A stretch of DNA of 36,574 nt from a virus: positions 1-36,574 of IMG/VR virus record IMGVR_UViG_3300034018_002633; one strand, written 5' to 3'. Both the position numbers and the translations under genes were made by a program. Under the pieces are notes generated by a model. It had not been told where the DNA came from and made no database searches. It saw nothing but the letters and a program-made list of their open reading frames with translations. This document shows positions 3-29,352 of the stretch, in pieces; within the stretch, counting starts at the first letter, position 1, and each line of letters starts with the position of its first letter.

Positions 3-2099
3 GGTTCCCAAGGTACTCAGGGAGCTCAAGGGGCAAGTCAAGGTGCTCAAGGTGCCACAGGACCACAAGGTGCCCAAGGTGTCCAAGGTGCTCAAGGTGC
101 GAATCAAGGAGCTCAAGGTGCCACAGGAGCCCAAGGTACTCAGGGTAGTGTCGGTGCTCAAGGAGGTACCCAAGGTGCTCAAGGAGCTACAGGTCCACAA
201 GGGGCTCAAGGTGTTCAAGGAGCTCAAGGTGCTAATACAGGGGCCCAAGGTGATACAGGTTTTCAAGGTGCCACAGGTTTTCAAGGTGCACAAGGGGCAA
301 ACCAAGGAGCACAAGGAAATCAAGGAGCTCAAGGGGTTCAAGGTTCCACAGGTGCTCAAGGAGCAAACCAAGGAGCCCAAGGAGCTCAAGGGTTTCAAGG
401 TCCACAGGGAGCTCAAGGGGCTCAGGGTGCGAATACAGGTGCTCAAGGTTCTCAAGGAGCTCAAGGAGTTCAAGGTCCTCAAGGGGCTCAAGGTGGTGTA
501 TCAGGGGGACAAGGACATACAGGGGCTCAAGGTGCTCAAGGTGATACAGGAGCTCAAGGTTTGTTTCAAGGTGCTCAAGGAGCTCAAGGAGCTCAAGGAC
601 CTAAAGGAGATACAGGAGCTCAAGGAAATGTGGTTGGTGATATAGGGGCAACTGGACCTCAGGGAGCTCAAGGGGCTCAAGGTTTTCAAGGTGGTGTTCC
701 AGGTGATGTGGGAGCTATAGGACCTAAAGGTGCTCAAGGAGCTCAAGGTGCACAAGGTTCTATTCAGGGAGCTCAAGGGGCTCAAGGACCTCAAGGTGCT
801 CAAGGAGCTCAAGGGGCTCAGGGTGCGAATACAGGGGCTCAAGGAGCTCAAGGAGCTGTAGGTAATACAGGAGCTCAAGGTGCTCAAGGTGCGAACCAAG
901 GAGCTCAAGGAGCTACAGGGGCTCAAGGTAATACGGGAGCTCAAGGGGCTCAAGGAGCCAATCAAGGTGCTCAAGGTGCCACTGGAGATACAGGAGCTCA
1001 AGGGGCTCAAGGTTCTCAAGGTGCTAATGTAGGGGCTCAAGGTGCTGATGGAGCTCAAGGGGCTCAAGGAAATCAAGGAGCTCAAGGGGCGGTAACAGGT
1101 GCTCAAGGTGCCACTGGAGGTACAGGTGCTCAAGGTGCTCAAGGTTCTCAAGGTGTAAATACAGGAGCACAAGGTGCTGAAGGATTTAAAGGTGTACCTG
1201 GAGCTCAAGGGGCTCAAGGTGCGAATCAAGGAGCTCAAGGTAATACAGGTCCAATAGGTTTTCAAGGTGCTCAAGGTAATGCGAGTGCAACTACAGGAGC
1301 TCAAGGTTCTCAAGGTGATACGGGAGCTCAAGGTTTTCAGGGGCCCGCGAATATTATTACTGGAGCTCAAGGAAACCAAGGTGCTCAAGGTTCCAATCTA
1401 GGAGGACCTGTAGGTGCTCAAGGAGCCGTAGGAGCTCAAGGAAACCAAGGTGCTCAAGGTTCTCAAGGACCTGTAGGTGCTCAAGGATTCCAAGGACCTC
1501 AGGGTACTCAAGGCTCTCAAGGACCTAAAGGGGTTCAAGGTTCTCAAGGCACCTCCAATGTTCCTGGAACACCAGGACCAACAGGTGCTCAAGGACCTGC
1601 AGGTTCAACAGGACCTAAAGGACCTCAAGGTGCTCAAGGAGCTCAAGGAGCTCAAGGGGCTGGAGGAGCGTCAGGACCTACAGGGCCTACAGGGTCTCAA
1701 GGTGCTCAAGGGGCTCAAGGTAATCTTGGTCCAACAGGGCCTAAAGGACCGCCATCAGATAAAAGACTTAAAGATAATATTCAAAATTTAGAGAATGTTT
1801 TAAACATTGCAAAACAGATTGAAGGTGTAACTTTTGTATGGGACTCTGAACATGATAAAATAAAAAACAATAAATCAATTATTTCTTATACAGCCTTCAA
1901 GGGAAAATCAATTGGTGTTATTGCACAACAAGTAGAAAAAGTTGTACCTAATTTGGTATTTACTGATAACGACGGTTACAAATCAGTTCAATATGATTTG
2001 ATGGTTAGTATAGGTGTTGGTAGTGTTAAAGAACAACAATTAAGAATTGATTCAATGTATAGTAGAATAAATAATTTAAAGGATAAGATAGGTGGCTGA
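3..2099 (+). CDS. Collagen-like fibre protein with C-terminal S74 chaperone domain (5' partial)
   Basis: The frame is open from the left window edge, so the N-terminus is missing; about 698 codons are visible. Roughly the first 584 residues are Gly-X-Y repeats dominated by Gly-Ala-Gln. They are broken about every 5-15 triplets by short interruptions such as GANQG, GANTG and GNVVG, which would kink a triple helix. From codon 1755 a peptidase S74 (endosialidase-type intramolecular chaperone) domain of about 114 residues begins with SDKRLKDN. Family knowledge makes this Ser and the Lys five residues later the self-cleavage dyad, and both are present. The likely role is a trimeric tail or side fibre whose chaperone folds the trimer and is then cut off. 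The stop overlaps the GTG start of the next fibre gene by 8 bases, suggesting translational coupling. Any internal start within the repeats would be an artefact of degenerate codons. Confidence 0.9.
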
Positions 2100-5028
2100 A
2101 AATATAGTAATAATACCTTCAGGTGGAACGATTAATTTCTTTGATACTGGTTCAACTCAAACTAATTGGGTGATAGAGTCTGGTACCTTAAAATTTAAAA
2201 GAGGTGCAACCACTTATTTATCGATGGATAATACTTATCCGAATTACCGAGTAAATGTTGATTTAAGATTAAATAGATTTTTAATAAACACTTTTGGAAA
2301 CCTAATTGGTGCTCAAGGTTGGTTAGGTAATGCTCAACCTCCAGGACCAACAGGGGCTGTAGGTTCTCAAGGGGCACAAGGTTCTCAAGGTTCTCAAGGA
2401 GCTAAGGGTGCCACGGGTAATCAGGGAGCTCAAGGAACTCAAGGTGCTCAAGGTGTTACAGGGCCAGGTGGAAATACAGGGGCACAAGGTGCTCAAGGAC
2501 CTAAAGGCGCTCAAGGTGCTCAAGGTTCTACAGGCGGACAAGGTTCACAGGGGGCACAAGGTTCACAGGGTGCGGTGGGTAACCAAGGTGCTCAAGGAGG
2601 ACAAGGTGCTCAAGGAGGACAAGGTGCTCAAGGAGATACTGGTAACCAAGGTGCTCAAGGAGGACAAGGTGCTCAAGGAGTTCAAGGTGGACAAGGAGCT
2701 CAAGGTGGACAAGGTTCTCAGGGAGGACAAGGTGCTCAGGGGGTACAAGGTGCTCAAGGAGTGGTTGGTAGTCAAGGTGCCCAAGGTGGACAAGGAGCTC
2801 AAGGAGCCCAAGGTGCTCAAGGGAATAAAGGTAATCAAGGAGCTCAAGGAGGACAGGGTTCTCAAGGGGCTCAAGGTTCTCAAGGTGCCGTAGGTAATAC
2901 AGGAGCTCAAGGAGGACAAGGTGCTCAAGGGGCTCAAGGGTCCCAAGGACCGCAAGGCTCACAAGGTTTTCAAGGAGGACAGGGTGCTCAGGGACCACAA
3001 GGTTCACAAGGTAATGTAGGGCCGCAAGGTGCTCAAGGAGGACAAGGTGCTCAAGGTGCTCAGGGACCACAAGGAACTCAAGGTGCTCAAGGCGCTCAAG
3101 GAGGACAAGGTTCACAAGGAGGAAAAGGTTCTCAAGGAGCAACTGGTAATACAGGAGCTCAAGGAGGTCAAGGAGCTCAAGGCGCTCAAGGACCACAAGG
3201 TTCTCAAGGTTCTCAAGGTGCTCAAGGAGGACAAGGTTCACAAGGAGGAAAAGGTTCTCAAGGTGCTCAAGGTAATCAAGGTGCTCAAGGAGGTCAAGGT
3301 TCTCAAGGTTCAATTGGGTCACAAGGGGTGCAAGGTGCTCAAGGTGCTCAAGGAGGACAAGGTACTCAAGGTGCTCAAGGACCACAAGGACCACAAGGAG
3401 CTCAAGGTTCACAAGGTGGACAAGGAGCTCAAGGTACGACAGGTGCTCAAGGAGGTAAAGGACCGTTTGGAGCTCAGGGAGGACAAGGAGCTCAAGGGGC
3501 TCAAGGAGCTCAAGGGGCTCAAGGTAATCAAGGTGCCCAAGGAGGTCAAGGTGCTCAAGGTTCACAAGGTGCACCAGGACTACAAGGAGCTCAAGGTGCT
3601 CAAGGAGGTAAAGGTGCTCAGGGTGCTCAGGGACAACAAGGTTCACAAGGTGCTCAAGGTGCCCAAGGTGGTAAAGGTGCTCAAGGTGCTCAAGGACCGC
3701 AAGGTGCTCAAGGTTCACAAGGTTCACAAGGTGGACAAGGTGCTCAAGGGTCTCAAGGACCACAAGGACCGCAAGGTGCTCAAGGTTCACAAGGTGGACA
3801 AGGAGCCCAAGGAGCTCAAGGTTCTCAAGGACCACAAGGTGCTCAAGGTACTCAAGGTGGACAAGGAGCTCAAGGAGCCCAAGGTTCACAAGGTAATATT
3901 GGACCTACTGGACCTGTAGGGGGTCAAGGTGCTCAGGGTGTCCAAGGTTCTCAAGGTGCACAAGGAGGTAAAGGTCCTCAAGGTGGACAAGGAGCTCAAG
4001 GTGGACAAGGAGCTCAAGGTTCACAAGGTAATCAAGGTGCTCAAGGAGGACAGGGTGCTCAGGGAGTTCAGGGTGCTCAAGGTGCTCAAGGTGGTAAAGG
4101 TCCTCAGGGTGGCCAAGGAGCTCAAGGTGTTCAAGGAAGTACAGGAGTTCAAGGAGCTCAAGGTGCTCAAGGAGGTCAGGGAGCTCAAGGTGCTCAAGGT
4201 GGTAAAGGACCTCAAGGAGCTCAAGGTGCTAATGGGGGACAAGGTGCACAGGGACCTAAAGGTGCTCAAGGTAGTCAGGGACCCACTGGTAATACAGGAG
4301 CTCAAGGAGCTCAAGGAGCTCAAGGAGCCCAAGGAGCGATTGGAGGTCAAGGAGCTCAAGGTGCTCAAGGTGCCCAAGGACCTGCAATCGCCACAGGAGG
4401 TGTGGGTGCTCAAGGACCAAAAGGTAATCAAGGCTCACCAGGGCCAAGTCCTCAAGGTGCGACAGGTGCTCAAGGTGCTCAAGGAGGTATTGGATTAGGT
4501 GCAACGGGAGCCCCTGGTAATACAGGGGCACCAGGAAGTAATGGACCTACGGGGGTACAAGGTTCTCAAGGAAACCAAGGTGCGATTGGAGTTGCAGGTC
4601 CACCAACACCAGGACCTACAGGACCTCCAGGACCTCAAGGAGCTCAAGGAGCTCAAGGTGCTGCAGGACCAACAGGACCAACAGGACCTCCAGGACCATC
4701 AGACGAAAGATTTAAGAAAGATATTAAACCAATTACAGACTCACTTGAAAAGGTGAAAAAAATGAGAGGTGTTAAATATTTTTGGAAAGATGACAGAATA
4801 ATAACAGGTAAAGAAATTAAAGATGAGATTGGATTTATTGCGCAAGAACTTAATCACGTTTTACCTGAAGTTGTTTACGGAAGTGAGGAAACGTCATTTC
4901 GAGTTAAGTATCACGATATAATTGCATTATGTATTGAAGCAATTAAAGAACAGTCAGTTCTTTTAGATATTACGGAAGAAAAGTTGTTAGAACTTGAGAA
5001 TATAGTAAAAGAAAAGGGATTAAATTAA
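2092..5028 (+). CDS. Collagen-like fibre protein with S74 chaperone domain (second, complete)
   Basis: 978 residues starting at a GTG that overlaps the upstream stop. Residues 1-80 form a non-repetitive, mostly beta-like head, probably the attachment domain. Residues about 81-869 are roughly 263 nearly uninterrupted Gly-X-Y triplets, mostly GAQ, GGQ and GSQ, with Lys in the Y position (GGK, GPK) and Pro-rich triplets (GPTGPP) towards the end. The S74 chaperone starts at the Ser codon 4699 (SDERFKKD) and keeps the Ser/Lys(+5) dyad; about 109 residues would be released. It contains the usual IGFIAQEL segment and a C-terminal coiled coil. Compared with the upstream fibre the helix is longer and straighter, so the pair may be proximal and distal fibre parts or alternative receptor binders. 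The nearly identical nine-base repeats favour slippage and recombination. Confidence 0.92.
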
Positions 5029-9695: not shown

Positions 9696-10138
9696 TATAT
9701 TGGTTTACAGGACAACCTGGTCACGGAAAGACCATTTTGGGGAAAATGTTAAAAGAATATATGAATGTTAATCATCCATTTAAAAATGTTATTCATATTG
9801 ATGGGGACCAACTAAGAAATATTTTTCAAAACCAAAACTATTCTCGTGAGGGTAGGGAACAAAATATCAGAAGAGCTCAGGATATTGCAAGATTTTTGGA
9901 CTTTGAAGGGTACGATGTAATCGTTAGTTTGGTTGCACCATATCGTGAATTAAGAGAAGAGTTCAAGAAAATGAATAACGTATCTGAGATTTATGTTCAC
10001 ACTTTAGAAGTAAGAGGTAGAGAACAAAATCATGTTGAAGACTACGAAGAGCCATTAGAAAACTTTATTGACATTGACACTACGGATATAGAACCTATGG
10101 GTAGTTTAGTTCAAATTATTAATGAATTGAATTTATGA
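9692..10138 (+). CDS. P-loop kinase of the adenylylsulfate kinase (CysC-like) type
   Basis: 148 residues. Walker A GQPGHGKT at 7-14, then HIDGDQLR (35-42), where CysC proteins have DGDxxR for APS binding, then an RRAQDIARFLDFEGYDVIVSL helix-strand unit and APYRELRE. This matches the APS kinase/gluconate-kinase-like P-loop family. APS kinases make PAPS from adenylylsulfate, but a phage homologue could phosphorylate another 5' nucleotide or 3'-OH substrate. It overlaps DUF3310 and the nucleotidyltransferase by 4 bases each. Such kinase plus HxGH nucleotidyltransferase pairs suggest a coupled activation reaction. It is shorter than bacterial CysC (about 200 residues), so the C-terminal part is trimmed. 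Confidence 0.8.
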   Translation: MIYWFTGQPGHGKTILGKMLKEYMNVNHPFKNVIHIDGDQLRNIFQNQNYSREGREQNIRRAQDIARFLDFEGYDVIVSLVAPYRELREEFKKMNNVSEIYVHTLEVRGREQNHVEDYEEPLENFIDIDTTDIEPMGSLVQIINELNL

Positions 10139-10542: not shown

Positions 10543-11393
10543 TGATAGAAACAGGAAAAATATTAAATGGAGATTGTATTGAGGTGATGAAGACATTACC
10601 TGAGGGTTGTGTTGATTTGGTTGTAACATCTCCACCATACAACGTAGGGATTGACTATGATAGTCATGATGACCGTATGAGTATGGAAGATTATTGGGAG
10701 TTCACCCGACAGTGGTTAACCGAAGCGTACAATCGATTGAAAGACGACGGTCGTATTGCGGTAAACATTCCTTACGAAGTAAACGTACAGGATAGAGGTG
10801 GACGAGTATTGTTCATGTCAGAGTTTTGGACCATAATGAAACAGGTTGGATTTAAGTTCTATGGTCTTGTTGACCTTGATGAAAACTCACCACACAGAAG
10901 TAAGACCACGGCTTGGGGTTCATGGATGAGTCCGTCAAGTCCTTACATCTACAACCCAAAGGAGTGTGTTATCTTGGCTTACAAGAAAGACCGTATCAAG
11001 AAAATTAAAGGGGAACCTCAATGGAAGGCCGACATGGTTGATATGGAACAAGAGGATGGTACTGTAAAAACTAAAGCGGTATATCAAGAAGATGATAAGA
11101 AAGAGTTTATGTCTTTGGTATATGGTCAGTGGGAATATTTTGCGGACACCAAACAACAAACTAAAGCAACCTTTTCAATGGATATTCCAATGAAAGCAAT
11201 CAAGATTCTTACATATAAAAACGATGTGGTTATGGACCCATTTGCAGGAAGTGGTACCAGTTTATGTGCTGCCGAGATTAGTGGTAGACGATGGATTGGA
11301 ATTGAGTTGAGTGAGAATTATAGTAAAGTCGCCAAGGAAAGGGTTCAACATTTTGTTGACCGAAATAAACAAATGGAACTGGATTTGAAATAA
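10542..11393 (+). CDS. DNA adenine-N6 or cytosine-N4 methyltransferase (beta class)
   Basis: 283 residues. Catalytic motif IV TSPPYN at 29-34 precedes the SAM-binding motif I DPFAGSGTS at 232-240, the order of beta-class amino-methyltransferases. GRRWIGIEL follows as motif II. The target-recognition region lies between them, about residues 115-215. SPPY occurs in N4-cytosine and some N6-adenine enzymes, so the modified base is uncertain. No restriction endonuclease is nearby, so it is probably an orphan enzyme protecting phage DNA or marking it for regulation. It is last in the operon, with a strong terminator right after the stop. Confidence 0.92.
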   Translation: MIETGKILNGDCIEVMKTLPEGCVDLVVTSPPYNVGIDYDSHDDRMSMEDYWEFTRQWLTEAYNRLKDDGRIAVNIPYEVNVQDRGGRVLFMSEFWTIMKQVGFKFYGLVDLDENSPHRSKTTAWGSWMSPSSPYIYNPKECVILAYKKDRIKKIKGEPQWKADMVDMEQEDGTVKTKAVYQEDDKKEFMSLVYGQWEYFADTKQQTKATFSMDIPMKAIKILTYKNDVVMDPFAGSGTSLCAAEISGRRWIGIELSENYSKVAKERVQHFVDRNKQMELDLK

Positions 11394-15316: not shown

Positions 15317-15370
15317 ATGTCCCACAGGCATTTGATTATTCGAAAAAATAGTTTTATCTTTGTGGGACAT
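15317..15370 (+). promoter_or_regulatory. Host-type promoter 3, inside a 10-bp perfect inverted repeat
   Basis: TTTG (15331-15334), 20 bases, TATCTTTG (15355-15362), about 40 bases before the initiator tRNA. Arms ATGTCCCACA (15317-15326) and TGTGGGACAT (15361-15370) are exact inverted repeats with a 34-base spacer that contains the -33 box and most of the -7 box. This is the best promoter for the tRNA. The repeat looks like an operator or a structure overlapping the transcription start. Confidence 0.75.
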
Positions 15371-15402
15371 TACTTTGAAAGTTCTTTAAAATAATAATAT
15401 AT

Positions 15403-15475
15403 CGCGGGGTAGTAGCAGTGGTAGCTCGCAAGGCTCATAACCTTGAGGTCGGAGGTTCGAATCCTTCCCCCGCAA
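15403..15475 (+). tRNA. Initiator tRNA-fMet (anticodon CAT)
   Basis: Acceptor stem CGCGGGG/CCCCGCA leaves the C1xA72 mismatch that marks bacterial initiator tRNAs. The D-stem keeps the initiator-type A11-U24 pair. Anticodon stem CAAGG/CCTTG encloses loop CTCATAA (anticodon 15436-15438), variable loop AGGTC, and T-arm GGAGG-TTCGAAT-CCTTC. Discriminator A73. CCA is not encoded. Oddities: an extra T at 15413 would bulge in the D-stem, and the usual three G-C pairs below the anticodon loop are reduced to two plus an A-U pair, which may weaken P-site selection. It sits between host-type promoters 3 and 4. Confidence 0.93.
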
Positions 15476-15486
15476 CTAAAAAAAAA

Positions 15487-15536
15487 GTTTACGAAAGTAC
15501 TTGACAAATTGAAAAAGATGTCTTAACTTTGTAAAC
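15487..15536 (+). promoter_or_regulatory. Host-type promoter 4, for the large non-coding RNA
   Basis: TTG (15501-15503), 20 bases, TAACTTTG (15524-15531). Flanking arms GTTTAC (15487-15492) and GTAAAC (15531-15536). Transcription would start near 15538 and run to the terminator at 16471-16505. Confidence 0.75.
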
Positions 15537-15537
15537 C

Positions 15538-16505
15538 AATTAAGAGAAAACGTTCTTTGAATTTAAGATATTATCCGTTCAGGAAACACAAAAGTGTCGG
15601 TGATATTATCCACCGAGTAAATGGCAGAAAGTCCGCAGCTTGAGTGTAACTGATAAAGATATTGGCGGTCTATAGTCAATAAATAAACCACGAAAGTGGT
15701 ATAAAGTGAACCATTTGGTTAAGTGGTTTGCGGCTTTCGCAAGAGAGCTCGAGTAGACAAGCGAGATATCGTTGGACCTTGAGTACCGAGGGTGACACTG
15801 TAGGGAAACTGGTTTGATGACCAAGCGATGTGGGTCGTTTGGTTGAGATGGGAACATCAATAAGAATAACTCGTAGAATTATTACAAGACATATGGTCAT
15901 CCAACCATACAATTGTGTTATTCATTACAAAAGTGGGTTTAAAACCGAAAGGTAAGAGTTCGTACAGGTGGTGCTGTTGTCTCCTTCTTAACTTCTCTAC
16001 CAAGGGAACTGAGATGAAACAAACTTGAAGTATCGAAATGGGGACATTTCAGAGAGTAGTTAAGTATCATGTTGTTCAAAAGATAGCATGGCTTGGTCGG
16101 CGAACCGCTACTTTCATCATCCACAACCGCAAAACTTTGACTTTTAAAGTGTCAATACTTATAAACGAAAAGGAAAAGCGTTCGCCAGTCGTAGTTGACA
16201 GGTCACTACATAGTCATGAGATGTTCATGGCCGTAAAGGGTCCCAAGCCCAATACGATTGTTGTGAAAGTTCTCTAAGTCCGCAAGACTTAATCAGGGTG
16301 GCAACCTTGAAGAGCAACGAATAATAACAGAGTAGATTACGACTTAAGGATTGGTTAATCTAATTGACCGTGACTGAGAGGTACTTCTCAAAAGGAAGTG
16401 GAAATCGGAGGAAAAAATAATCTCCTGTAAAGTCTCTCACAAGAAGGTGTATTCTCAACCTGAAGCCAAGAACCCCGACAAGAAATTGTTCGGGGTTTTT
16501 TGTTT
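15538..16505 (+). ncRNA. Large structured non-coding RNA candidate, about 0.95 kb, family unidentified
   Basis: A dedicated promoter and a strong terminator bracket about 950 bases without a convincing protein. Local hairpins are dense: CGGTG/CACCG (15598-15615), ACCAC-GAAA-GTGGT, the 9-bp ACCAAGCGA/TCGTTTGGT (15820-15843), GATG-GGAA-CATC, TATGGT/ACCATA (15893-15910), AAGTC/GACTT, AGGGT/ACCTT, AGATTA/TAATCT competing with GGTTAA/TTGACC, GGAG/CTCC, and a GAGAG/CTCTC closing stem near the 3' end. TTCAGG (15578) can pair with CCTGAA (16459), joining both ends. Size, phage origin and tRNA adjacency fit the giant ornate RNAs GOLLD and ROOL. AGAAAGTCCG and GGTAAGAG recall RNase P RNA but are not in a convincing P4 context. 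No tmRNA tag or T-arm is visible. A family assignment needs covariance models. Confidence 0.6.
16471..16505 (+). terminator. Rho-independent terminator of the large RNA
   Basis: AACCCCGA and TCGGGGTT arms, extended by CAA/TTG around a GAAA loop, then a T-run. The T-run doubles as the -33 region of the smpB promoter. Confidence 0.93.
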
Positions 16506-16535: not shown

Positions 16536-16961
16536 ATGAAAGAGGGAGTCAACATAGTGAACAGAAGGGCGAAGCATGAATACGAGTTCTTGGACACGTA
16601 TCAAGCGGGTATGGTCTTGACTGGTGTTGAGGTTAAATTCATTCGTGACGGTAAGTTATCTTTTGTTGATTCTTATTGTATGTTCCATGGTGGGGAGTTG
16701 TTTATGAAAAACGTATCCATCTCTGGTATTGGTACAGACAACATTAAAAGAGACCGTAAGTTATTACTCAGAAAACGTGAGTTGGTTAAACTTCAAAAGA
16801 GTTTGGACAAAGGTTTGAGTATCATCCCTTACCGTATTTACCAAAAGAAAAACACCCTCAAGGTTGATATCGTTCTTGCTCGTGGTAAGAAATTACATGA
16901 CAAGAGGCAGACCTTGAAAGAAAAGGATATTCAAAAAGAAATAAGTAGAACATTAAAATAA
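16536..16961 (+). CDS. smpB: SmpB, tmRNA-binding protein
   Basis: 141 residues covering the whole SmpB fold: VNIVNRRAKHEYEFLDTYQAG, VLTGVEVKFIRDGK (the GTEVK-type tmRNA-binding loop, with Val for Thr), RKLLLRKRELVKL, LARGKKLHDKR and the basic helical tail KEKDIQKEISRTLK that occupies the mRNA channel. SmpB brings tmRNA to ribosomes stalled on broken messages. ATG 16536 is preferred over GTG 16557 because Bacteroidetes SmpB proteins have the same short N-terminus before the N-I/V-x-N-K/R-R-A segment. GTG 16557 has a GAGGGAG run upstream, so it stays possible. It follows the large RNA's terminator and precedes the second WCTA gene by 5 bases. No tmRNA gene is recognisable in the window, so it would use host tmRNA or one elsewhere in the phage. 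Confidence 0.95.
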   Translation: MKEGVNIVNRRAKHEYEFLDTYQAGMVLTGVEVKFIRDGKLSFVDSYCMFHGGELFMKNVSISGIGTDNIKRDRKLLLRKRELVKLQKSLDKGLSIIPYRIYQKKNTLKVDIVLARGKKLHDKRQTLKEKDIQKEISRTLK

Positions 16962-21698: not shown

Positions 21699-22240
21699 TG
21701 TTGAAGCAAGGTCTTAAATTCTTATATGTCTTGTGCCTCATTGTGGTTGTCTTAGCCACAATGAGCCTCACAGACAAGTATGTTCGTCGAGATGAATATA
21801 AGTTAAGTGAATTGGGTGGACAACCAAATTCACCATTCTGTTTACAGATGTATACCTCAATTGAGAAATACAGTGACATGTATAAAGTTCCCAAGTATAT
21901 TGCATACAACGTGGCATATCTTGAGACACGTTATCAGGGACCGTTCCATTGGAACTATGACCACAGACAGATTTCATCGGCAGGAGCTCAGGGACCGATG
22001 CAAATCATTACAAGATGGGCTCACAGTTATGCGGAGAGAAGGGTTAGTGAAAGAGAATTACGTAATAATATTGACCTAAACGTTAGAGTCAGTATGAAGA
22101 TGTTGAGAACACGATATGATATGACTCGTGATTGGATGTTGGCTTGTGGTGGGTACAACACTGGTTCACCTGTTAGAAACTCATACGCGGTGTTCGCAGC
22201 AACTAATAAAAATTATAAAAATAACTGGATTAAGTATTGA
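21695..22240 (+). CDS. Membrane-anchored lytic transglycosylase (SLT domain)
   Basis: 181 residues. An N-terminal membrane segment or uncleaved signal anchor (7-23) places the enzyme in the periplasm. SLT motifs: catalytic Glu77 in AYLETRY, then SAGAQGPMQI (95-104, the S-x-G-A-x-G-x-M-Q motif), ERELRNNIDLNVRVSMKML, and GGYNTG (152-157, the A-Y-N-A-G equivalent). It cleaves the MurNAc-GlcNAc bond of peptidoglycan, for lysis or for DNA entry. The signal-anchor design resembles SAR-type phage endolysins. An alternative ATG at 21698 removes one residue. The stop overlaps the TTG of the next gene. Confidence 0.88.
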   Translation: MMLKQGLKFLYVLCLIVVVLATMSLTDKYVRRDEYKLSELGGQPNSPFCLQMYTSIEKYSDMYKVPKYIAYNVAYLETRYQGPFHWNYDHRQISSAGAQGPMQIITRWAHSYAERRVSERELRNNIDLNVRVSMKMLRTRYDMTRDWMLACGGYNTGSPVRNSYAVFAATNKNYKNNWIKY

Positions 22241-23145
22241 AAACACATGTAGTTGTAACGGGAGCCTATGGGTTCATAGGTTCCCATTTTGTGAATAAAA
22301 TTAAAGAGTTACATCCTGAATGGGAAATAACGATAATAGATAAATTAACATACGCCGCAAATCGTGATAACATTAAGTGTGATGTTAATTTTATCCATGA
22401 GGACATTTGGAATATGGAATATCTACCCGACTGTGAATATATCGTTCACTTTGCGGCAGAAACTCACGTAGATAATTCCATTAAAGATGGTAGACCTTTC
22501 ATGAGAACAAATGTTGAAGGGACATTCAACTTGGTTGAGTTGGCTAAGAACCTGAAGAAACTTAAAAAGTTCGTTCATGTTTCTACCGATGAGGTTTACG
22601 GTGACCGTTTCATCAAAGGGAAATTGGTTTTGGCTACAGAGGACTCCAACCTACATGGAAGTTCTTATTATTCATCATCAAAGATTGGTTCAGATATGAT
22701 TGTTGAAGCGGCAGGAAGAACATTTGGATTACCATACCTCATTACCAGGACTTGTAATAACTTCGGTGAGAACCAACACCACGAGAAGATGTTACCAAAG
22801 ATTATCCAATGTGTTAAGAACGGAGAGACAATCCCTGTTTATGGTGATGGAGAACAAGTGAGAGAATGGATTCATGCCGATGATAATTCACAAGCAATTT
22901 ACAATTTGTTAATATCGGATATCAAAAATGAAGTATTTAATATAGGGAGTGGTTATAGAATTACAAACAACCAACTTATCGCGAAGGTTGGTGAAGTAAT
23001 TGGAAACACACCCAAATACGAATATGTGAAGGATAGATTGGGGCACGACAGGATGTACGGATTACATTGTGAGAAGTACATTGAAAAATTCGGACCAATT
23101 TCAACCATCACATTAGACGCCTGGTTAAAAAAAATGTTGTCATAA
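22237..23145 (+). CDS. dTDP-glucose 4,6-dehydratase-like SDR (RmlB family)
   Basis: 302 residues from a TTG start overlapping the previous stop; no later start is possible without losing the NAD-binding motif GAYGFIGSH at 9-17. HFAAETHVDNS (71-81) and STDEVYG (116-122, with the catalytic Asp118-Glu119 of dehydratases) are present. The catalytic Tyr145 and Lys149 lie in YSSSK, and TRTCNNFGENQHHEK is the substrate loop. It would oxidise and dehydrate a nucleotide hexose to the 4-keto-6-deoxy sugar, feeding deoxysugar glycosylation. It is slightly shorter than bacterial RmlB (about 340-360). The first sugar gene of the cluster, although a zinc-finger gene and small genes separate it from the glycosyltransferases. 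Confidence 0.88.
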   Translation: MKTHVVVTGAYGFIGSHFVNKIKELHPEWEITIIDKLTYAANRDNIKCDVNFIHEDIWNMEYLPDCEYIVHFAAETHVDNSIKDGRPFMRTNVEGTFNLVELAKNLKKLKKFVHVSTDEVYGDRFIKGKLVLATEDSNLHGSSYYSSSKIGSDMIVEAAGRTFGLPYLITRTCNNFGENQHHEKMLPKIIQCVKNGETIPVYGDGEQVREWIHADDNSQAIYNLLISDIKNEVFNIGSGYRITNNQLIAKVGEVIGNTPKYEYVKDRLGHDRMYGLHCEKYIEKFGPISTITLDAWLKKMLS

Positions 23146-23157
23146 CCGAAAAAATGT

Positions 23158-23188
23158 TTTGGCGGTTCCAATAATTGTCTTATCTTTG
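23158..23188 (+). promoter_or_regulatory. Host-type promoter before the 244-aa gene
   Basis: TTTG (23158-23161), 19 bases, TATCTTTG (23181-23188), 23 bases before the ATG. Only a weak 5-bp inverted repeat (TGTTG 23135 / CAACA 23192) surrounds it. Confidence 0.72.
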
Positions 23189-23211
23189 TATCAACAAAAA
23201 CACTAAGACAT

Positions 23212-23946
23212 ATGACAACTACCACCACTCAAAAAGTTAAAAATTACAAAGGTCAAAACTCTTTCATCCTTAAGATGAAGGATACAGTATCTAAATACGG
23301 TTCATTAACTATGGCACAATCAAACGCAGTAGAGAAAATCCTCAACGCTCCTGTTGAAGCAAAACAGGTTGAGTTGACTGAAGACATGAAGAAAATTCAA
23401 GCCTACACAGGTGAGAACAACTTCGTAAAAGAAATCCAATCCAAACTTGAGAAGTACGGTAAGTTGACTGACAAACAAGTGTCAGCAGCAGTTGCTCAAA
23501 TCGTAAAAGAAGAGAACAAAAACAAGACCGTAAAGATGAATTGGCCAACTGAGGGTGAGTCTATCATCTTGGCTCGTAAAATCGGTCAACAGTTGAAAGA
23601 GACTTACGGTTTGGAATTCAACCCTGTATTGATTGACATCACTCGTTTGTTGGGTGTTAGTCCAAAGGCAGTTAAGTTTGCAGGTAAGATGACCATAAAA
23701 CGTGGTAACATCTGTATGTGTTGCGGACGTGAGTTGAGTGACGAGTTCTCAATGTTGACTAAGATGGGTAAGACATGTTCTAAACACATGAAGGTGGAAT
23801 ACATCAAGGACAAGTCTGAGGTTGAACGTTTCCGTAACGATTACTTAAAACGAGTTGAGGAAATCGGTGAGATGGAGTTTTGGGTTCCAAAATCACAAAT
23901 CAAAAAATGGAACGGAATGACAGAAAGTATTGTCAAATCCTTCTAA
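23212..23946 (+). CDS. Zinc-finger protein with two N-terminal repeats, 244 aa
   Basis: Residues 12-44 and 65-97 are a degenerate repeat of about 33 residues, each of the form Y-x-G-x-N-x-F-x(7)-K-Y-G-x-L-T-x-x-Q-x-x-A-V. After a linker comes a helical region and a zinc site built from Cys168, Cys171, Cys189 and probably His192 (CMCCGRELSDEFSMLTKMGKTCSKHM), resembling the CxxCGRxL zinc modules of phage proteins such as DUF6011. No catalytic residues are evident. The architecture suggests nucleic-acid or protein binding. Single gene with strong promoter and terminator; C-rich codon use like 20817. Function unknown. Confidence 0.78.
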   Translation: MTTTTTQKVKNYKGQNSFILKMKDTVSKYGSLTMAQSNAVEKILNAPVEAKQVELTEDMKKIQAYTGENNFVKEIQSKLEKYGKLTDKQVSAAVAQIVKEENKNKTVKMNWPTEGESIILARKIGQQLKETYGLEFNPVLIDITRLLGVSPKAVKFAGKMTIKRGNICMCCGRELSDEFSMLTKMGKTCSKHMKVEYIKDKSEVERFRNDYLKRVEEIGEMEFWVPKSQIKKWNGMTESIVKSF

Positions 23947-23956
23947 AAAAAAAGAA

Positions 23957-23988
23957 ATCCCCAGCCTTGAAAGTTGGGGTTTTTTTCT
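23957..23988 (+). terminator. Rho-independent terminator
   Basis: CCCCAGC / GTTGGGG, a 7-bp hairpin followed by seven T residues. Confidence 0.85.
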
Positions 23989-24000
23989 TATCATTGGTGT

Positions 24001-24204
24001 ATGAGTTACATTATTATTAAAATGGTAAAAGACGCCAGTCGAGAAAAAGAATTACCTGTCATCATTTTGGACAGTGCTGATGATGTATTAGAATTTGAAA
24101 CAAAAGAAGAAGCAGAGGAGATGAGACTTAGATTTGAAATCAACTCTGACTCAGGACACAAGTATAGAGTTAAAAAAATAGGTGACCCACATGATAACCA
24201 TTAA
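24001..24204 (+). CDS. Hypothetical protein, 67 aa
   Basis: A small alpha/beta protein: MSYIIIKMVKDAS, VIILDSADDVLEFETKEEAEEMRLRFEINS, then YRVKKI. The pattern strand-helix-strand with E-T-K-E-E-A-E-E is that of small phage proteins adapting a beta-alpha-beta sheet. The frame ends with an overlap of 14 bases into the next gene. I prefer ATG 24001 to an upstream TTG/ATG inside the terminator region. Function unknown. Confidence 0.65.
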   Translation: MSYIIIKMVKDASREKELPVIILDSADDVLEFETKEEAEEMRLRFEINSDSGHKYRVKKIGDPHDNH

Positions 24205-24529
24205 CAAAAAAGAACAAGAATTAATTGATGAAGTGATTAACAACTTCGACTTCTATAAATGCCAAATAATGATGGAATTTATGGGTTGGAGATGGTTGAC
24301 GTATGACGGGTATAGAATCCCAACAAAGTACGATTTAATCAAGTCGGCTAAAGATAGAATCCAATCTGCTATTGAAGGGATTAAAGAAGCGGGTAAAATG
24401 GGTTTAAACGAGTCTTACGGGTCATCAAGTGGTGGTTTGAAGGCGACAGTATACAAGAACCGTTACAATCAAATAACTTTCATTAAATTGGAATTTATAT
24501 TAACTGAATGGGATGCAGGTGATGATTAA
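24191..24529 (+). CDS. Hypothetical protein, 112 aa
   Basis: Helical start (INKKEQELIDEVINNFDFYKCQIMMEFMGWRW) followed by P-T-K-Y-D-L-I-K-S-A-K-D-R and a GGLKATVYKNRYNQITFIKLEFILTEWD beta end. It resembles short phage proteins with an N-terminal F-x-K/C-x-x-x-M-x-x-x-x-W-x-W segment, common in tailed phages, of unknown function. ATG 24191 overlaps the previous gene; an in-frame GTG at 24182 is the alternative start. Confidence 0.7.
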   Translation: MITINKKEQELIDEVINNFDFYKCQIMMEFMGWRWLTYDGYRIPTKYDLIKSAKDRIQSAIEGIKEAGKMGLNESYGSSSGGLKATVYKNRYNQITFIKLEFILTEWDAGDD

Positions 24530-24543
24530 AACAAATAAAGAAC

Positions 24544-25254
24544 ATGATTAATTTAAGATTATCTAAACAATTGGCGACCCAATACCAATTGGCGAAACCA
24601 TTTCCGTATATTGTCATTGATGACTTTTTACCTGAAATGGTATTAAATAATGTTGTTGATGAATTCAACAATAATGATAAATGGTGGTATGACCGAGTTA
24701 AATGGACTGAAGAGTTCCAAGTTAATAAATTTTACTGGCCGCATGATATCGAAAGTGCTAAAAATATGTCTAATGATTTACCGACGATATCTAAGTTAGT
24801 TAATTATTTGAATTCTCCTGAAATGTTAAAATATTTAGAAGAGTTAACTGGTATTGATAATTTAATTAGTGATGAATCATTAATGGGTGGTGGTTTACAT
24901 AAGATAACTTCAGGAGGTAAATTGGCAATTCATAGAGATTATAACGTACATCCAATTAAAAAAATCTATCGTAGATTAAATCTTTTAATTTATCTTAATA
25001 AAAATTGGGAAAAAGAATGGGAGGGTAATCTTGAATTATGGGATAAGGACTATAATAACGTACAAGTTAGTGTAGGTCCAATATTTAATCGAGCGGTTAT
25101 TTTTACAATTAGTGATGATTCTTTACATGGACACCCAACGGCATTAAAAACTCCTGAAAATGTAAGTAGAAATTCAATTGCACTTTACTATTTTACAGAA
25201 ATAAACCCTGATGAAGGTAATGAACATTCAGTAGTTTTTTACGATGAAAAATAA
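24544..25254 (+). CDS. 2OG-Fe(II) dioxygenase (prolyl-hydroxylase-like)
   Basis: 236 residues. Opening PFPYIVIDDFLP is the usual first strand of phage 2OG-Fe(II) enzymes. The iron ligands appear as HxD in AIHRDYN (His130, Asp132) and a distal His in SLHGHPTA (His195 or His197); Arg209 in VSRNS is placed for 2-oxoglutarate binding, followed by SIALYYF. RRLNLLIYLNKNW is the typical core strand. Substrates in this group include protein prolyl and lysyl side chains and carbohydrate or nucleotide carriers. The phage has collagen-like fibres, whose Y-position Lys and Pro are the classical targets of related enzymes, but the gene sits among glycosyltransferases, so a glycan target is equally possible. 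Confidence 0.87.
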   Translation: MINLRLSKQLATQYQLAKPFPYIVIDDFLPEMVLNNVVDEFNNNDKWWYDRVKWTEEFQVNKFYWPHDIESAKNMSNDLPTISKLVNYLNSPEMLKYLEELTGIDNLISDESLMGGGLHKITSGGKLAIHRDYNVHPIKKIYRRLNLLIYLNKNWEKEWEGNLELWDKDYNNVQVSVGPIFNRAVIFTISDDSLHGHPTALKTPENVSRNSIALYYFTEINPDEGNEHSVVFYDEK

Positions 25255-25260
25255 AATATA

Positions 25261-27093
25261 ATGGCGCATAAAGCTCAAAGGGAATTCTGTGATAGTGTTA
25301 GGGTCAAGTACCCTGATATGTTTAAAAATAAAAAAGTTTTAGATGTTGGTTCATTAGATAATAATGGAAACAACCGTTTTTTATTTGAAAATTGTGAGTA
25401 CATAGGTATTGATGTAGGTGAAGGACCTAATGTTGATGTGGTCTCTTCAGGTCATGAGTACGATGCTCCTGATGAATACTTTGATGTTATTATTTGCACT
25501 GAAGTATTTGAACATGATATGCATTATCATAAAACAGTTACAAATATAATTAGGATGTTAAAAACAGGTGGGATTTTTATATTCACCTGTGCTGCACCCG
25601 ATAGACCTGAACATGGTACACGAAAAACTTCTCCATGGCATGCTAAACTATTAGAAAATGTTTCAGAGGAGTGGTCGGATTACTATAAAAACTTAACTCA
25701 CTTAGATTTTAAAGAAATTGTTAATTTTAATGAAACTTTTCCAAATGGGTATTTTGAACTTAGAACTGCAAATATTGCAGAGGCGTCCGATTTGTATTTT
25801 TATGGTATTAAAGGTGATGAAAGTAAAAAAGAAATTACAAATGATATGAAAACAAAAAAACCTAGCGCCATAGTTTATGGGCGAAACATAAACGGAGAGG
25901 AAATTTTAATTTCTGATGTTTATTTTGAGGAGGCATTATATGATGAGGTAATAGTATATTCATTACCTTATACTAATAATGTGGTAGAGGACTACTCCAA
26001 ATATAAACCTGATTTAATTATATCAATGGGTGTTGAAATTGATATCCCTCACTACCATCTCCGCAATATTCACATAGGGTATTCTGAATTATTACCTGAT
26101 AATGTATTAGCGAATGATATTGTGTGTAATACTGTTTTTAAATATTGTGCTGTAAACAGACCGAGGTTTTCAATTTTTACACCAACATATAAGACTGGAG
26201 AAAGAATAAAACGTACATACGAAAGTTTGGCCAATCAAACAATGACAAATTGGGAATGGGTGGTAGTTGATGATTCTCCTGATAACGAAACATGGAACAT
26301 ATTAAATGAAATTGCAAAAAATGATTACAGAGTTAAATTACATAGGATTTTACCTTTATCGGGTGGGAATGTCGGTTTGGCAAAACATAGAGCGGCTACC
26401 CTTGGAAGTGGTGATTGGCTTGTTGAGCTTGACCATGATGATGCTTTAACGACAGAGTGTCTTGAGATTTGTAATGACGCCATCTTAACATATCCTGACG
26501 CAGGGTTCTTATATTCTGACGTATGTGAAATGTATGATGATGGTGAAATGAAAACTTATGACCACGATTGGTCAGGTAATTGGTATGCGAGACATGACAA
26601 CTACTTTGACTTTGGATATGCTGGTCACACATGGGTTAATGTGGATGGTAAAGACATCTTGGCACATTGGTACCCTGACATCAATCCATTATCTATCCGT
26701 TTCAACATAAGTATGCCAGACCACGTTAGAATGTGGGATAGAAATTTATATCATCAGATAGGTGGACATAATAAGAACACACCGATTGCAGATGACTTGG
26801 AAATTATTATTAGGTCTTTTTTGAATACACGTATGATTCACGTAAAAAAAGTCTTATACTTCCAATACAATAATAGAAATAGTACCGTCGATAATAATGC
26901 GACAGACATAAACCGAAGAGCCAGATTGATTAGAGATTACTATGATTTGGCAATTCATAATCGTATACATGAATTAGGATTCCATGATTGGAATTGGGAT
27001 GATGAATTAGGTCACTCACAAAAACTTCAAAACAGGGTCCCAATTAGAAAGTATTACGAAGAAGAACAAGTAATGAATTACATTTATGAATAA
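25261..27093 (+). CDS. Methyltransferase - linker - family 2 glycosyltransferase fusion, 610 aa
   Basis: Three parts. Residues about 1-185: class I SAM methyltransferase (KKVLDVGS at 24-31, YIGIDVGEGP, FDVIICTEVFEH, LKTGGIFIFTC). Residues about 200-300: a compact alpha/beta domain (SAIVYGRNINGEEILISD) of unclear type. Residues about 301-560: GT-A fold glycosyltransferase (FSIFTPTYKTGERIKRTYESL, WVVVDDSPD at 333-341, SGGNVGLAKHRA, and ELDHDD, the metal-binding DxD, at 389-394). It would transfer a sugar and methylate a sugar or acceptor in one polypeptide. Codons are AT-rich. The stop overlaps the next glycosyltransferase start. Confidence 0.85.
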   Translation: MAHKAQREFCDSVRVKYPDMFKNKKVLDVGSLDNNGNNRFLFENCEYIGIDVGEGPNVDVVSSGHEYDAPDEYFDVIICTEVFEHDMHYHKTVTNIIRMLKTGGIFIFTCAAPDRPEHGTRKTSPWHAKLLENVSEEWSDYYKNLTHLDFKEIVNFNETFPNGYFELRTANIAEASDLYFYGIKGDESKKEITNDMKTKKPSAIVYGRNINGEEILISDVYFEEALYDEVIVYSLPYTNNVVEDYSKYKPDLIISMGVEIDIPHYHLRNIHIGYSELLPDNVLANDIVCNTVFKYCAVNRPRFSIFTPTYKTGERIKRTYESLANQTMTNWEWVVVDDSPDNETWNILNEIAKNDYRVKLHRILPLSGGNVGLAKHRAATLGSGDWLVELDHDDALTTECLEICNDAILTYPDAGFLYSDVCEMYDDGEMKTYDHDWSGNWYARHDNYFDFGYAGHTWVNVDGKDILAHWYPDINPLSIRFNISMPDHVRMWDRNLYHQIGGHNKNTPIADDLEIIIRSFLNTRMIHVKKVLYFQYNNRNSTVDNNATDINRRARLIRDYYDLAIHNRIHELGFHDWNWDDELGHSQKLQNRVPIRKYYEEEQVMNYIYE

Positions 27094-28243
27094 AAAAACA
27101 AAGATTGTATTGAATGCCATGGTGGGTAACGAAGCTAACACCATTACCAGAATGTTGGAATCAACCGTACCTTATATTGATTACTACGTAATCCAATGCA
27201 ACGGTAAAGAAGATAATACTCAAGAGATTATTGATAGTTTCTTTGCGGAACGTGGTGTACCAGGTTTTACTTACATTATTGATTGGGATTATCCAGGATG
27301 GAATCGAGACCATACACTTCAGACATGTTTAAAGGCTGACCATGGATGCGATTGGATTCTTCGAATGGATGCTGACGAAAGACTTCATGTTGACGAAGAT
27401 TTTGATTGGTCTGTACTTGATGACACTAGTGTTGATAGTTATAACCTTTGTGCTCAGAATGGGGACTTAAGATACTTCAGAACTTGGTTTTGGAATGCAA
27501 GAAGACCATGGTTTTTCCAACACGACAAAAGACATGAGACCATTCATTTACCTGAAGTTGGTGAAAACTTTGAAAGAAGAATGATGCCGCTTGGGTTTAG
27601 ACATTTGGTTTCTCAAGACGGTTTTACGTGGGCGGTTCCTCGTAAATTCTTACGTGATGCATTGGAATTAGAAATTGATAAAGTTGTTGGGTATAAGGTA
27701 TTAGAGGATTATTACCACCTTTGGTACATTGCTAAAAGTTATTCAGATTGTTATGGTAACTCTGATGAATTACCTTTTGGTAAGATGCATTCAGATGAAT
27801 ACGCAAGACGTTCTATTTGGTACTACGAAAGGTTCTTACACTTGACTAATGATTGGGATAACTCAAAAACTGCAAAAAGACAAGATGAGATGTGTTATTT
27901 TGCACTAATCATGATGGGACAAGCTCACAAGTTTATTGGTAATGTTGCAACTGCATTAGAACAATACGAACTAGCTGAACAATTCTCACCAATGAGAAAC
28001 GAACATTTATTACATTTGATGTTCTACTTGGATGAGTTGGGAAGACAGGAAGATGCTCTTGAAGTTGTGAATAAAATGATGCAACCTGAAAGAGTTAATC
28101 CATTCCCAAATTCATCATTCTTAATTGAAGGTAGGGCTTATTATAATACAGGAACGTTGTTGAGTGAGATGAAAGAAAAACTTACCAAGAGAATTGAGGA
28201 ACCAATCATAGACATGAATAGTATTCCATTTGATTTTAAATAA
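27086..28243 (+). CDS. Family 2-type glycosyltransferase with C-terminal TPR-like helices
   Basis: 385 residues. N-terminal GT-A domain with KIVLNAMVGNEANTITRML, DYYVIQCNGKEDNT and the metal-binding RMDADERL (DADE at 95-98). A Trp/His-rich central insert with HETIHLPE and a C-terminal helical repeat (ALEQYELAEQFSPM, HLMFYLDELGRQEDALEVV) resemble TPR-containing glycosyltransferases of the SunS/WaaE-like group and those in large phages. TPRs often hold a protein acceptor, which suits a fibre target. Overlaps the upstream fusion gene by 8 bases and the mutase by one base, so the three form one coupled unit. Confidence 0.86.
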   Translation: MNKKTKIVLNAMVGNEANTITRMLESTVPYIDYYVIQCNGKEDNTQEIIDSFFAERGVPGFTYIIDWDYPGWNRDHTLQTCLKADHGCDWILRMDADERLHVDEDFDWSVLDDTSVDSYNLCAQNGDLRYFRTWFWNARRPWFFQHDKRHETIHLPEVGENFERRMMPLGFRHLVSQDGFTWAVPRKFLRDALELEIDKVVGYKVLEDYYHLWYIAKSYSDCYGNSDELPFGKMHSDEYARRSIWYYERFLHLTNDWDNSKTAKRQDEMCYFALIMMGQAHKFIGNVATALEQYELAEQFSPMRNEHLLHLMFYLDELGRQEDALEVVNKMMQPERVNPFPNSSFLIEGRAYYNTGTLLSEMKEKLTKRIEEPIIDMNSIPFDFK

Positions 28244-29352
28244 TGTTAATGAAGACCCCTAAATATGATTATCTGATTGTCGGAGCGGGTATATACGGTT
28301 CAGTGTGTGCCAACGAATTAACCAAAAAAGGTAAGTCCTGTTTGGTTATTGACAAACGGGATGTCATTGGTGGAAATTGTTATACTGAGAATGTTAATGG
28401 TATACATGTTCACAAATATGGTGCTCACATATTCCACACAAACGATAAGAAACTTTGGGACTATGTTAATCAATTTGCCGAGTTCAAACAATACACACAT
28501 AATGTAATTGCAAACTATAAGGGGAAGATGTACACTCTTCCCTTTAATATGTGGACATTTAATCAGATGTGGGGTGTGAATAATCCTGAAGATGCTAAAG
28601 AGTTTTTAGAGTCACAAAAGTTCACAGGAAAGATTACTAACCTTGAAGAACAGGCTACGTCAATGGTTGGTAAAGACATCTATGAGAAACTAATTAAAGG
28701 TTATACTGAAAAACAATGGAACAAACCGTGTAATGAATTACCACCATCCATTATTAAAAGACTACCTGTAAGGTTTAGTTGGGATAGTAATTATTTCAAT
28801 GACAAATACGTTGGGATGCCAGTTGGAGGTTATACACAAATCTTTGAAAAAATGTTGGAAGGTTCTGACGTGGAACTTGGAGTTGATTACTTTGAAAATA
28901 AAAAGTATTATGACTCAGTTGCGAATACGGTAATTTATACGGGTCCTATAGATAAGTTTTTTAATTATCAATTTGGTGAATTGGAATATAGAAGTTTGAC
29001 ATGGATAACAGAAACCAAGAGTGAAGACAATTTCCAAGGAGTTCCTGTAATGAACTATACTGATTCCAATACCGAATATACACGAATATTGGAACACAAA
29101 TGGTTTGACCATCAAAATCAAAAAGGGACTATAATAAGTTATGAATACCCTGCGGATTACGATGGTACCAACGAACCATATTATCCTGTTAGAGATGATA
29201 GAAATACTAAAATCTACCAACAATACCATGACCTAACCAAAGGTATGGGTAAGTATATCTTTGGTGGTAGATTGGGTTCCTATGTTTATTATGATATGCA
29301 TCAGGTGATTGCACAAGCACTTTTAATGATTGGGGAACTTGACAAATCATAA
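28243..29352 (+). CDS. glf: UDP-galactopyranose mutase
   Basis: 369 residues, the normal length for Glf. FAD-binding GAGIYGS (14-20), VIDKRDVIGGNCYTE, the family-specific HKYGAHIFHTND (57-68), LPFNMWTFNQMWG, GYTEKQWNKP, YTGPIDKFF and the C-terminal FGGRLGSYVYYDMHQVI are all present. It interconverts UDP-galactopyranose and UDP-galactofuranose, so the cluster probably makes a Galf-containing glycan or decoration. The start may be ATG 28243 or 28249. One-base overlap with the preceding glycosyltransferase. Confidence 0.95.
   Translation: MLMKTPKYDYLIVGAGIYGSVCANELTKKGKSCLVIDKRDVIGGNCYTENVNGIHVHKYGAHIFHTNDKKLWDYVNQFAEFKQYTHNVIANYKGKMYTLPFNMWTFNQMWGVNNPEDAKEFLESQKFTGKITNLEEQATSMVGKDIYEKLIKGYTEKQWNKPCNELPPSIIKRLPVRFSWDSNYFNDKYVGMPVGGYTQIFEKMLEGSDVELGVDYFENKKYYDSVANTVIYTGPIDKFFNYQFGELEYRSLTWITETKSEDNFQGVPVMNYTDSNTEYTRILEHKWFDHQNQKGTIISYEYPADYDGTNEPYYPVRDDRNTKIYQQYHDLTKGMGKYIFGGRLGSYVYYDMHQVIAQALLMIGELDKS

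Follow-up and report, generated by a model that had tools for sequence, protein, structure and literature searches.

The window is a viral record 36,574 bases long, and its stretch at positions 15538-16505 encodes a phage GOLLD RNA, a member of a known RNA family. About 0.95 kb lies there between a predicted promoter and terminator without a credible gene, flanked by a tRNA-Met gene and smpB. The Rfam scan of the window gave two matches only, the tRNA and GOLLD (RF02032), the latter at 16052-16461 on the plus strand with 329.2 bits and an E value of 7.8e-94 over model positions 1-416 of 416; the gathering score of RF02032 is 150 bits and the Rfam model describes only the 3' half of GOLLD. The initial annotation had proposed a phage RNA of the GOLLD or ROOL class between an initiator tRNA and smpB. 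The cmsearch with Rfam settled this in favour of GOLLD (329 bits over the full model), and both flanking genes were confirmed. The features of the locus are as follows.

15332-15362, plus strand: Bacteroidota-type promoter (TTG ... TATCTTTG) before the tRNA, recognized from sequence
15381-15389, plus strand: GTTCTTTAA, a boxA-like motif within the leader of the tRNA
15403-15476, plus strand: initiator tRNA-Met (CAT) with a C1 x A72 mismatch, CCA not encoded (ARAGORN, Rfam, initiator hallmarks)
15501-15531, plus strand: GOLLD promoter of Bacteroidota type, TTGAC-N18-TAACTTTG (sequence; type conserved in 19 of 27 relatives)
15552-15561, plus strand: GTTCTTTGAA, a boxA-like motif of the antitermination type in the leader of GOLLD, after the promoter and ahead of the 5' domain
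15575-15655, plus strand: variable module of the 5' leader, which close relatives lack or have replaced by another sequence
15660-16051, plus strand: GOLLD 5' domain, outside the Rfam model (homologous in 156 of 157 listed loci; covarying helices 2-20)
16052-16461, plus strand: GOLLD 3' domain, RF02032 positions 1-416 (329 bits, E 8e-94)
About 16097-16165, plus strand: variable linker inside the 3' domain (alignment columns about 540-620 variable)
16473-16501, plus strand: intrinsic terminator of GOLLD (sequence and fold; same place in close relatives)
16536-16961, plus strand: smpB, encoding the tmRNA-binding protein, 141 amino acids from ATG (PF01668, 152 bits)

Other identities were considered for the RNA. 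It resembles ROOL in size class, phage origin, tRNA adjacency and in being of a cage-forming kind, but differs in sequence and fold, and ROOL was rejected after giving no match at the gathering score in the window nor up to E 1 in a lax scan of the region. RNase P RNA was likewise rejected, with no match up to E 1 in the lax scan, and the RNase P-like words pointed out earlier are chance occurrences; nothing besides the GOLLD match was found in that scan. That the RNA represents a hitherto undescribed class of large structured RNA with no relation to GOLLD, the fallback of the initial annotation, could be argued from the 5' half, which lies outside the Rfam model and has no Rfam match of its own. 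It is nevertheless exceedingly improbable, as the full-length match of 329 bits rules it out, 156 of 157 listed loci have this 5' domain together with GOLLD, and its core motif CAGGTGGTGCTG occurs at nearly the same distance in the GOLLD of an Acinetobacter phage.

The phage origin of the RNA is seen in the tail-fibre genes of the window and in the viral record itself, and a tRNA-Met lies nearby, as is often the case for GOLLD. The tailed phage most likely infects Bacteroidota, a host assignment taken from the promoter type only. A blastn search with the 3' half of GOLLD against named phages gave no match. The exact 3' GOLLD pattern was absent from GTDB genomes, so the GOLLD subfamily of the window is not a common prophage element. 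Elsewhere in the window the following genes were found.

43-5028, plus strand: tail-fibre genes with very long collagen-like repeats, their products ending in S74 chaperone domains
22237-29352, plus strand: sugar gene cluster
31431-33350, plus strand: protein of 639 amino acids containing a cohesin domain, with a type IX secretion sorting domain (Por_Secre_tail) at its C terminus

The sugar cluster contains an epimerase, a 2OG-Fe(II) oxygenase, a methyltransferase-glycosyltransferase fusion, a glycosyltransferase and a UDP-galactopyranose mutase. The Por_Secre_tail on the phage-encoded 639-amino-acid protein is a surface-export signal of Bacteroidota.

Structure of the two RNA domains

Two pattern scans of viral contigs yielded at least about 170 GOLLD loci. 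Exact words from the GOLLD subfamily of the window served as search patterns and the loci were counted from the matches listed, which biases the sample towards the window's relatives; the contigs are fragments, and near-identical ones were collapsed through k-mer clustering alone. Since the Rfam model covers only the 3' half, a separate test was made of the 5' half. A common 5' domain was present in 156 of the 157 listed loci with enough upstream sequence, the exception being the Acinetobacter phage, which shares the core word at nearly the conserved distance.

For the structure test, 26 non-redundant GOLLD RNAs were aligned and then folded, giving 194 pairs. Over both domains 97.1 % of cells were paired and 138 of the 194 pairs had compensatory changes on both sides (covariation score 0.554), figures which are favoured by the derivation of the consensus structure from the same alignment that was used for counting. 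Shuffled alignments gave 80.8 % paired cells, 82.7 pairs with changes and a score of 0.228, none of 500 being as good, and structures slid by 1-3 columns gave about 40 % paired cells, 41-59 pairs with changes and scores of about 0.1. Given the effect size and the outcome of the shuffles, the covariation is beyond doubt; it had been named earlier as a check on the RNA, and the 5' half is as structured as the 3' half. The window RNA also folds more strongly than its shuffles (z -2.9) and has the layout of GOLLD, with a conserved 3' domain, a separate 5' domain, a variable linker and a length of at least about 800 nt.

The longest stop-to-stop frames in the 26 homologues were 52-166 codons, compared with 52-181 in shuffled sequences, and were scattered over places and strands, which excludes coding as the cause of the covariation. 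The earlier statement that no credible protein is encoded therefore holds, and the proposed comparison of homologues revealed no conserved coding frame. The pairing suggested between the ends of the RNA, TTCAGG (15579-15584) with CCTGAA (16459-16464), did not stand, since it is not conserved in relatives: L007, L025, L088 and L013 lack the 5' stretch bearing TTCAGG, and L112 and L071 have another sequence in its place, but CCTGAA is retained. The first 80 nt of the transcript (window 15575-15655) appear as an exchangeable module among otherwise very similar relatives.

A cage structure, a D7 14-mer solved by cryo-EM, is known for GOLLD env-38 only (PMC12286853). The window RNA is like env-38 in its full-length 3' domain match, its separate, less conserved 5' domain and its variable linker, and also in being phage-borne with a Met-tRNA upstream. 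By analogy with the solved GOLLD (PMC12286853), the window RNA very probably self-assembles into a hollow homo-oligomeric cage. Unlike env-38, it has an rRNA-type boxA leader, an initiator tRNA and, immediately downstream, smpB.

Transcription signals of the GOLLD gene

The elements of the GOLLD promoter are TTGAC at 15501-15505 and TAACTTTG at 15524-15531, from which the transcript is predicted to start near 15537-15540. The same promoter type was found within 110 nt after the tRNA in 19 of the 27 loci with an upstream tRNA-Met (0.15 expected from shuffles). The host-type promoter described in the initial annotation was thus seen directly and recurs in relatives, and the strong terminator it described was confirmed by folding as an intrinsic terminator with the sequence CCCCGACAA-GAAA-TTG-T-TCGGGG-TTTTTT.

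The motif G[CT]TCTTT[AG]A was present in the GOLLD leader of 71 of the 76 non-redundant listed loci, against 0.3 expected, and its density was 4.75 per kb in the leader vs 0.08 per kb elsewhere in the loci (61-fold). It thus stands as an rRNA-type boxA at the level of the motif, the consensus lying in the leader between promoter and structured RNA. Bacteroidota carry the same motif 60-130 nt ahead of their 16S rRNA. When GTDB genomes were scanned for GTTCTTTGA with a 16S start after it, at least 120 loci were obtained, mostly in Bacteroidota with some in Bacilli and mycoplasmas, and in 29 of 119 of those leaders a TAnnTTTG element lies at most 60 nt upstream. BoxA and Nus factors have been proposed to prevent Rho termination in E. 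coli rRNA (PMC4807359). The leader motif resembles the boxA of rRNA operons, suggesting that antitermination may operate at GOLLD. The arrangement is like that of Bacteroidota 16S rRNA leaders, in which a promoter is followed by the motif and then by a long untranslated structured RNA, but the window motif precedes a phage RNA and its link to Nus factors is a prediction from sequence.

In four loci (L089, L129, L014 and L083) one or two extra small RNA-like units are located between tRNA-fMet and GOLLD, each having its own promoter and some a boxA-like word, with a recurring stretch like CCTGTCCYATTAAGAGTRGGGGGT; such units are absent from the window. A short element, ATGGAGCNACCGGTAAA, lies between the GOLLD end and the terminator in L004, L024, L030, L047 and their relatives, which have no tRNA.

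Initiator tRNA, smpB and tmRNA beside GOLLD

The tRNA directly upstream or downstream of GOLLD is nearly always tRNA-Met and, by its sequence, mostly of the initiator type. The window tRNA has the CAT anticodon, the 1-72 mismatch and GG/CC next to the CTCATAA loop; where a third G-C pair would complete the anticodon stem (29-41), this tRNA and most of its relatives have A-U, as do many other tRNAs of initiator type on viral contigs. In 16 of 28 loci the 150 nt preceding the upstream tRNA-Met contain a boxA-like motif.

The association was assessed in 72 non-redundant clusters of loci fetched by GOLLD patterns only, loci found with the tRNA pattern having been removed in order to avoid selection bias. 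A tRNA was taken as near when it was on the same strand and at most 1.2 kb upstream or 250 nt downstream of GOLLD, and as an initiator when it had at least two hallmarks. Of 40 near tRNAs, 31 were tRNA-Met and 23 initiators, compared with 8 and none of 71 farther tRNAs in the same clusters (initiators 23/40 vs 0/71, Fisher p 2e-13). No nearby tRNA was found in 30 of the 59 non-redundant clusters with full flanks. On well-supported branches of the GOLLD tree the state of the upstream tRNA-Met changed at least 8 times and that of the downstream one at least 6 times, and the link to tRNA-Met has thus been gained or lost repeatedly. GOLLDs of other phage lineages adjoin tRNA-Asp or no annotated tRNA, and the initiator link was not seen there. 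The converse, that a phage initiator tRNA implies GOLLD, was unsupported, a GOLLD match being present in 7 of 115 loci newly fetched by the initiator-tRNA pattern; initiator tRNAs are common on viral contigs. A text search of the literature gave no report of GOLLD with an initiator tRNA, though the key GOLLD papers were outside its coverage and earlier notice is possible.

Some huge phages have tRNA-Glu(TTC)-like genes around GOLLD with 8-nt anticodon loops (CTTTTCGG or CTTTTCAG), several with D-loop insertions, which ARAGORN cannot type.

L001, 9659-9756, 10855-10953 and 11034-11124: tRNA-Glu(TTC)-like genes
L002, about 9783-9903 and 10837-10910: tRNA-Glu(TTC)-like genes
L130, 12 nt after GOLLD: tRNA-Glu(TTC)-like gene

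Just 3' of GOLLD in L163, L279 and L146 there are tRNA-like hairpins with an acceptor stem and T arm, lacking an anticodon arm, in the place occupied by the tRNA in other phages.

In the window, L078, L160, L112 and L071, GOLLD is followed at 71-72 nt by smpB; in L007, L025 and L088 the distance is 651-1593 nt. A general GOLLD-smpB pair was rejected, the adjacency being confined to relatives of the window; in the phages of 634 and 642 kb, GOLLD is followed by a gene other than smpB. Among contigs of 80 kb or more, tmRNA was found in 24 of 35 with GOLLD vs 4 of 24 controls and, among non-redundant contigs, in 17 of 26 vs 4 of 24 (p 6e-4), the controls being contigs carrying tRNA-Met whose hosts may differ from those of the GOLLD set. 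It was within 4 kb of GOLLD in 18 of the 24 (114-3811 nt), compared with 1.4 expected from random placement. The two genes were nearly exclusive, with only one contig having both, and 8 of the 35 large GOLLD contigs had neither tmRNA nor SmpB. In the clade of the window, SmpB takes the place held by tmRNA in other GOLLD phages. The unrelated phage DSS3_MAL1 has tmRNA 58-113 nt after GOLLD and a tRNA-Arg inside the GOLLD linker.

The presence of tmRNA has been reported in 2.3 % of phage genomes (PMC9004378), and tmRNA and SmpB were already known from huge phages (PMC7162821). Like those huge phages with translation genes (PMC7162821), the GOLLD megaphages LR745206 and LR756502 encode SmpB, but unlike in the window their smpB is 67-88 kb from GOLLD; the main text of PMC7162821 does not mention GOLLD. 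The closeness of tmRNA or SmpB to GOLLD was unreported in the literature text search, the coverage of which excluded the key GOLLD papers. ARAGORN predicts long tag frames, for example ANVELSTMTFEDAMAWMNSFDYAVAA, in the tmRNAs of L044, L057, L058, L060, L079, L163, L205, L275 and L348, the predicted tag lengths varying widely.

A possible role in translation takeover

The rRNA-style start signal, the start-tRNA and the ribosome-rescue genes beside GOLLD point to takeover of host translation, and the likeliest role of GOLLD is in such a takeover late in infection. Ribosomes are reported to bind GOLLD in pull-downs, and GOLLD to rise during lysis (PMC12286853). In the mechanism proposed, boxA would recruit Nus factors, so that an untranslated RNA of about 0.95 kb could be made at an rRNA-like rate without Rho termination, the phage tRNA-fMet would keep initiation going, tmRNA or SmpB would rescue ribosomes that have stalled on damaged mRNAs, and the cage would capture, store or shield parts of the translation machinery, either ribosomal subunits or tRNA. 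The complete explanation, a GOLLD gene of a Bacteroidota tailed phage within a late-infection translation-takeover island, comes close to an even balance of probability without reaching it. That the locus serves as such an island late in infection is plausible, with rather more weight against than for it. It is suggested tentatively that GOLLD might be the RNA core of the system, combining rRNA-like antitermination with tRNA-fMet and tmRNA/SmpB, and, late in infection, capturing or shielding initiator tRNA or parts of the ribosome with its cage.

The genes for tmRNA and tRNA often cluster in phages, so a shared location need not mean a shared function. GOLLD might have no special tie to translation, with tRNA, tmRNA, SmpB and large RNAs sharing one non-coding or accessory island and the role of GOLLD lying elsewhere, in lysis timing, genome packaging or other cargo. 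This is also a tentative possibility, consistent with the GOLLD known from mycobacterial tRNA arrays (PMC6582537), the GOLLD in a mixed tRNA array of an Acinetobacter phage and the loci without a nearby tRNA (30/59), but it does not predict that the nearby tRNA in Bacteroidota-type phages is specifically an initiator (23/40 vs 0/71), usually outside arrays, nor that tmRNA is enriched both contig-wide and close to GOLLD. Alternatively, the adjacent tRNA or tRNA-like hairpin could serve to make RNA ends, RNase P cutting before a tRNA 8-22 nt after GOLLD and so setting its 3' end, the identity of the tRNA being incidental. Downstream tRNAs do mostly start 8-22 nt after GOLLD, L163 and L279 have the hairpin of acceptor stem and T arm without an anticodon arm at the place of the tRNA, L146 has a sequence similar to those hairpins, and L010 and L095 have no terminator between GOLLD and the tRNA. 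This explanation is rather unlikely, however, as in the window and most loci the tRNA lies upstream with a promoter of its own and GOLLD is equipped with a separate promoter and terminator, and the initiator identity of the tRNA is left unexplained.

Beyond the initial annotation, the analysis adds the boxA-like leader motif, the association with initiator tRNA in particular, and tmRNA or SmpB as neighbours. The 5' domain of GOLLD is constrained as strongly as the 3' domain modelled in Rfam. For an RNA with a solved cage structure and no known function, the gene context gives a concrete and testable pointer, translation, and the initiator tRNA, tmRNA and SmpB contexts name partners to look for in GOLLD pull-downs.
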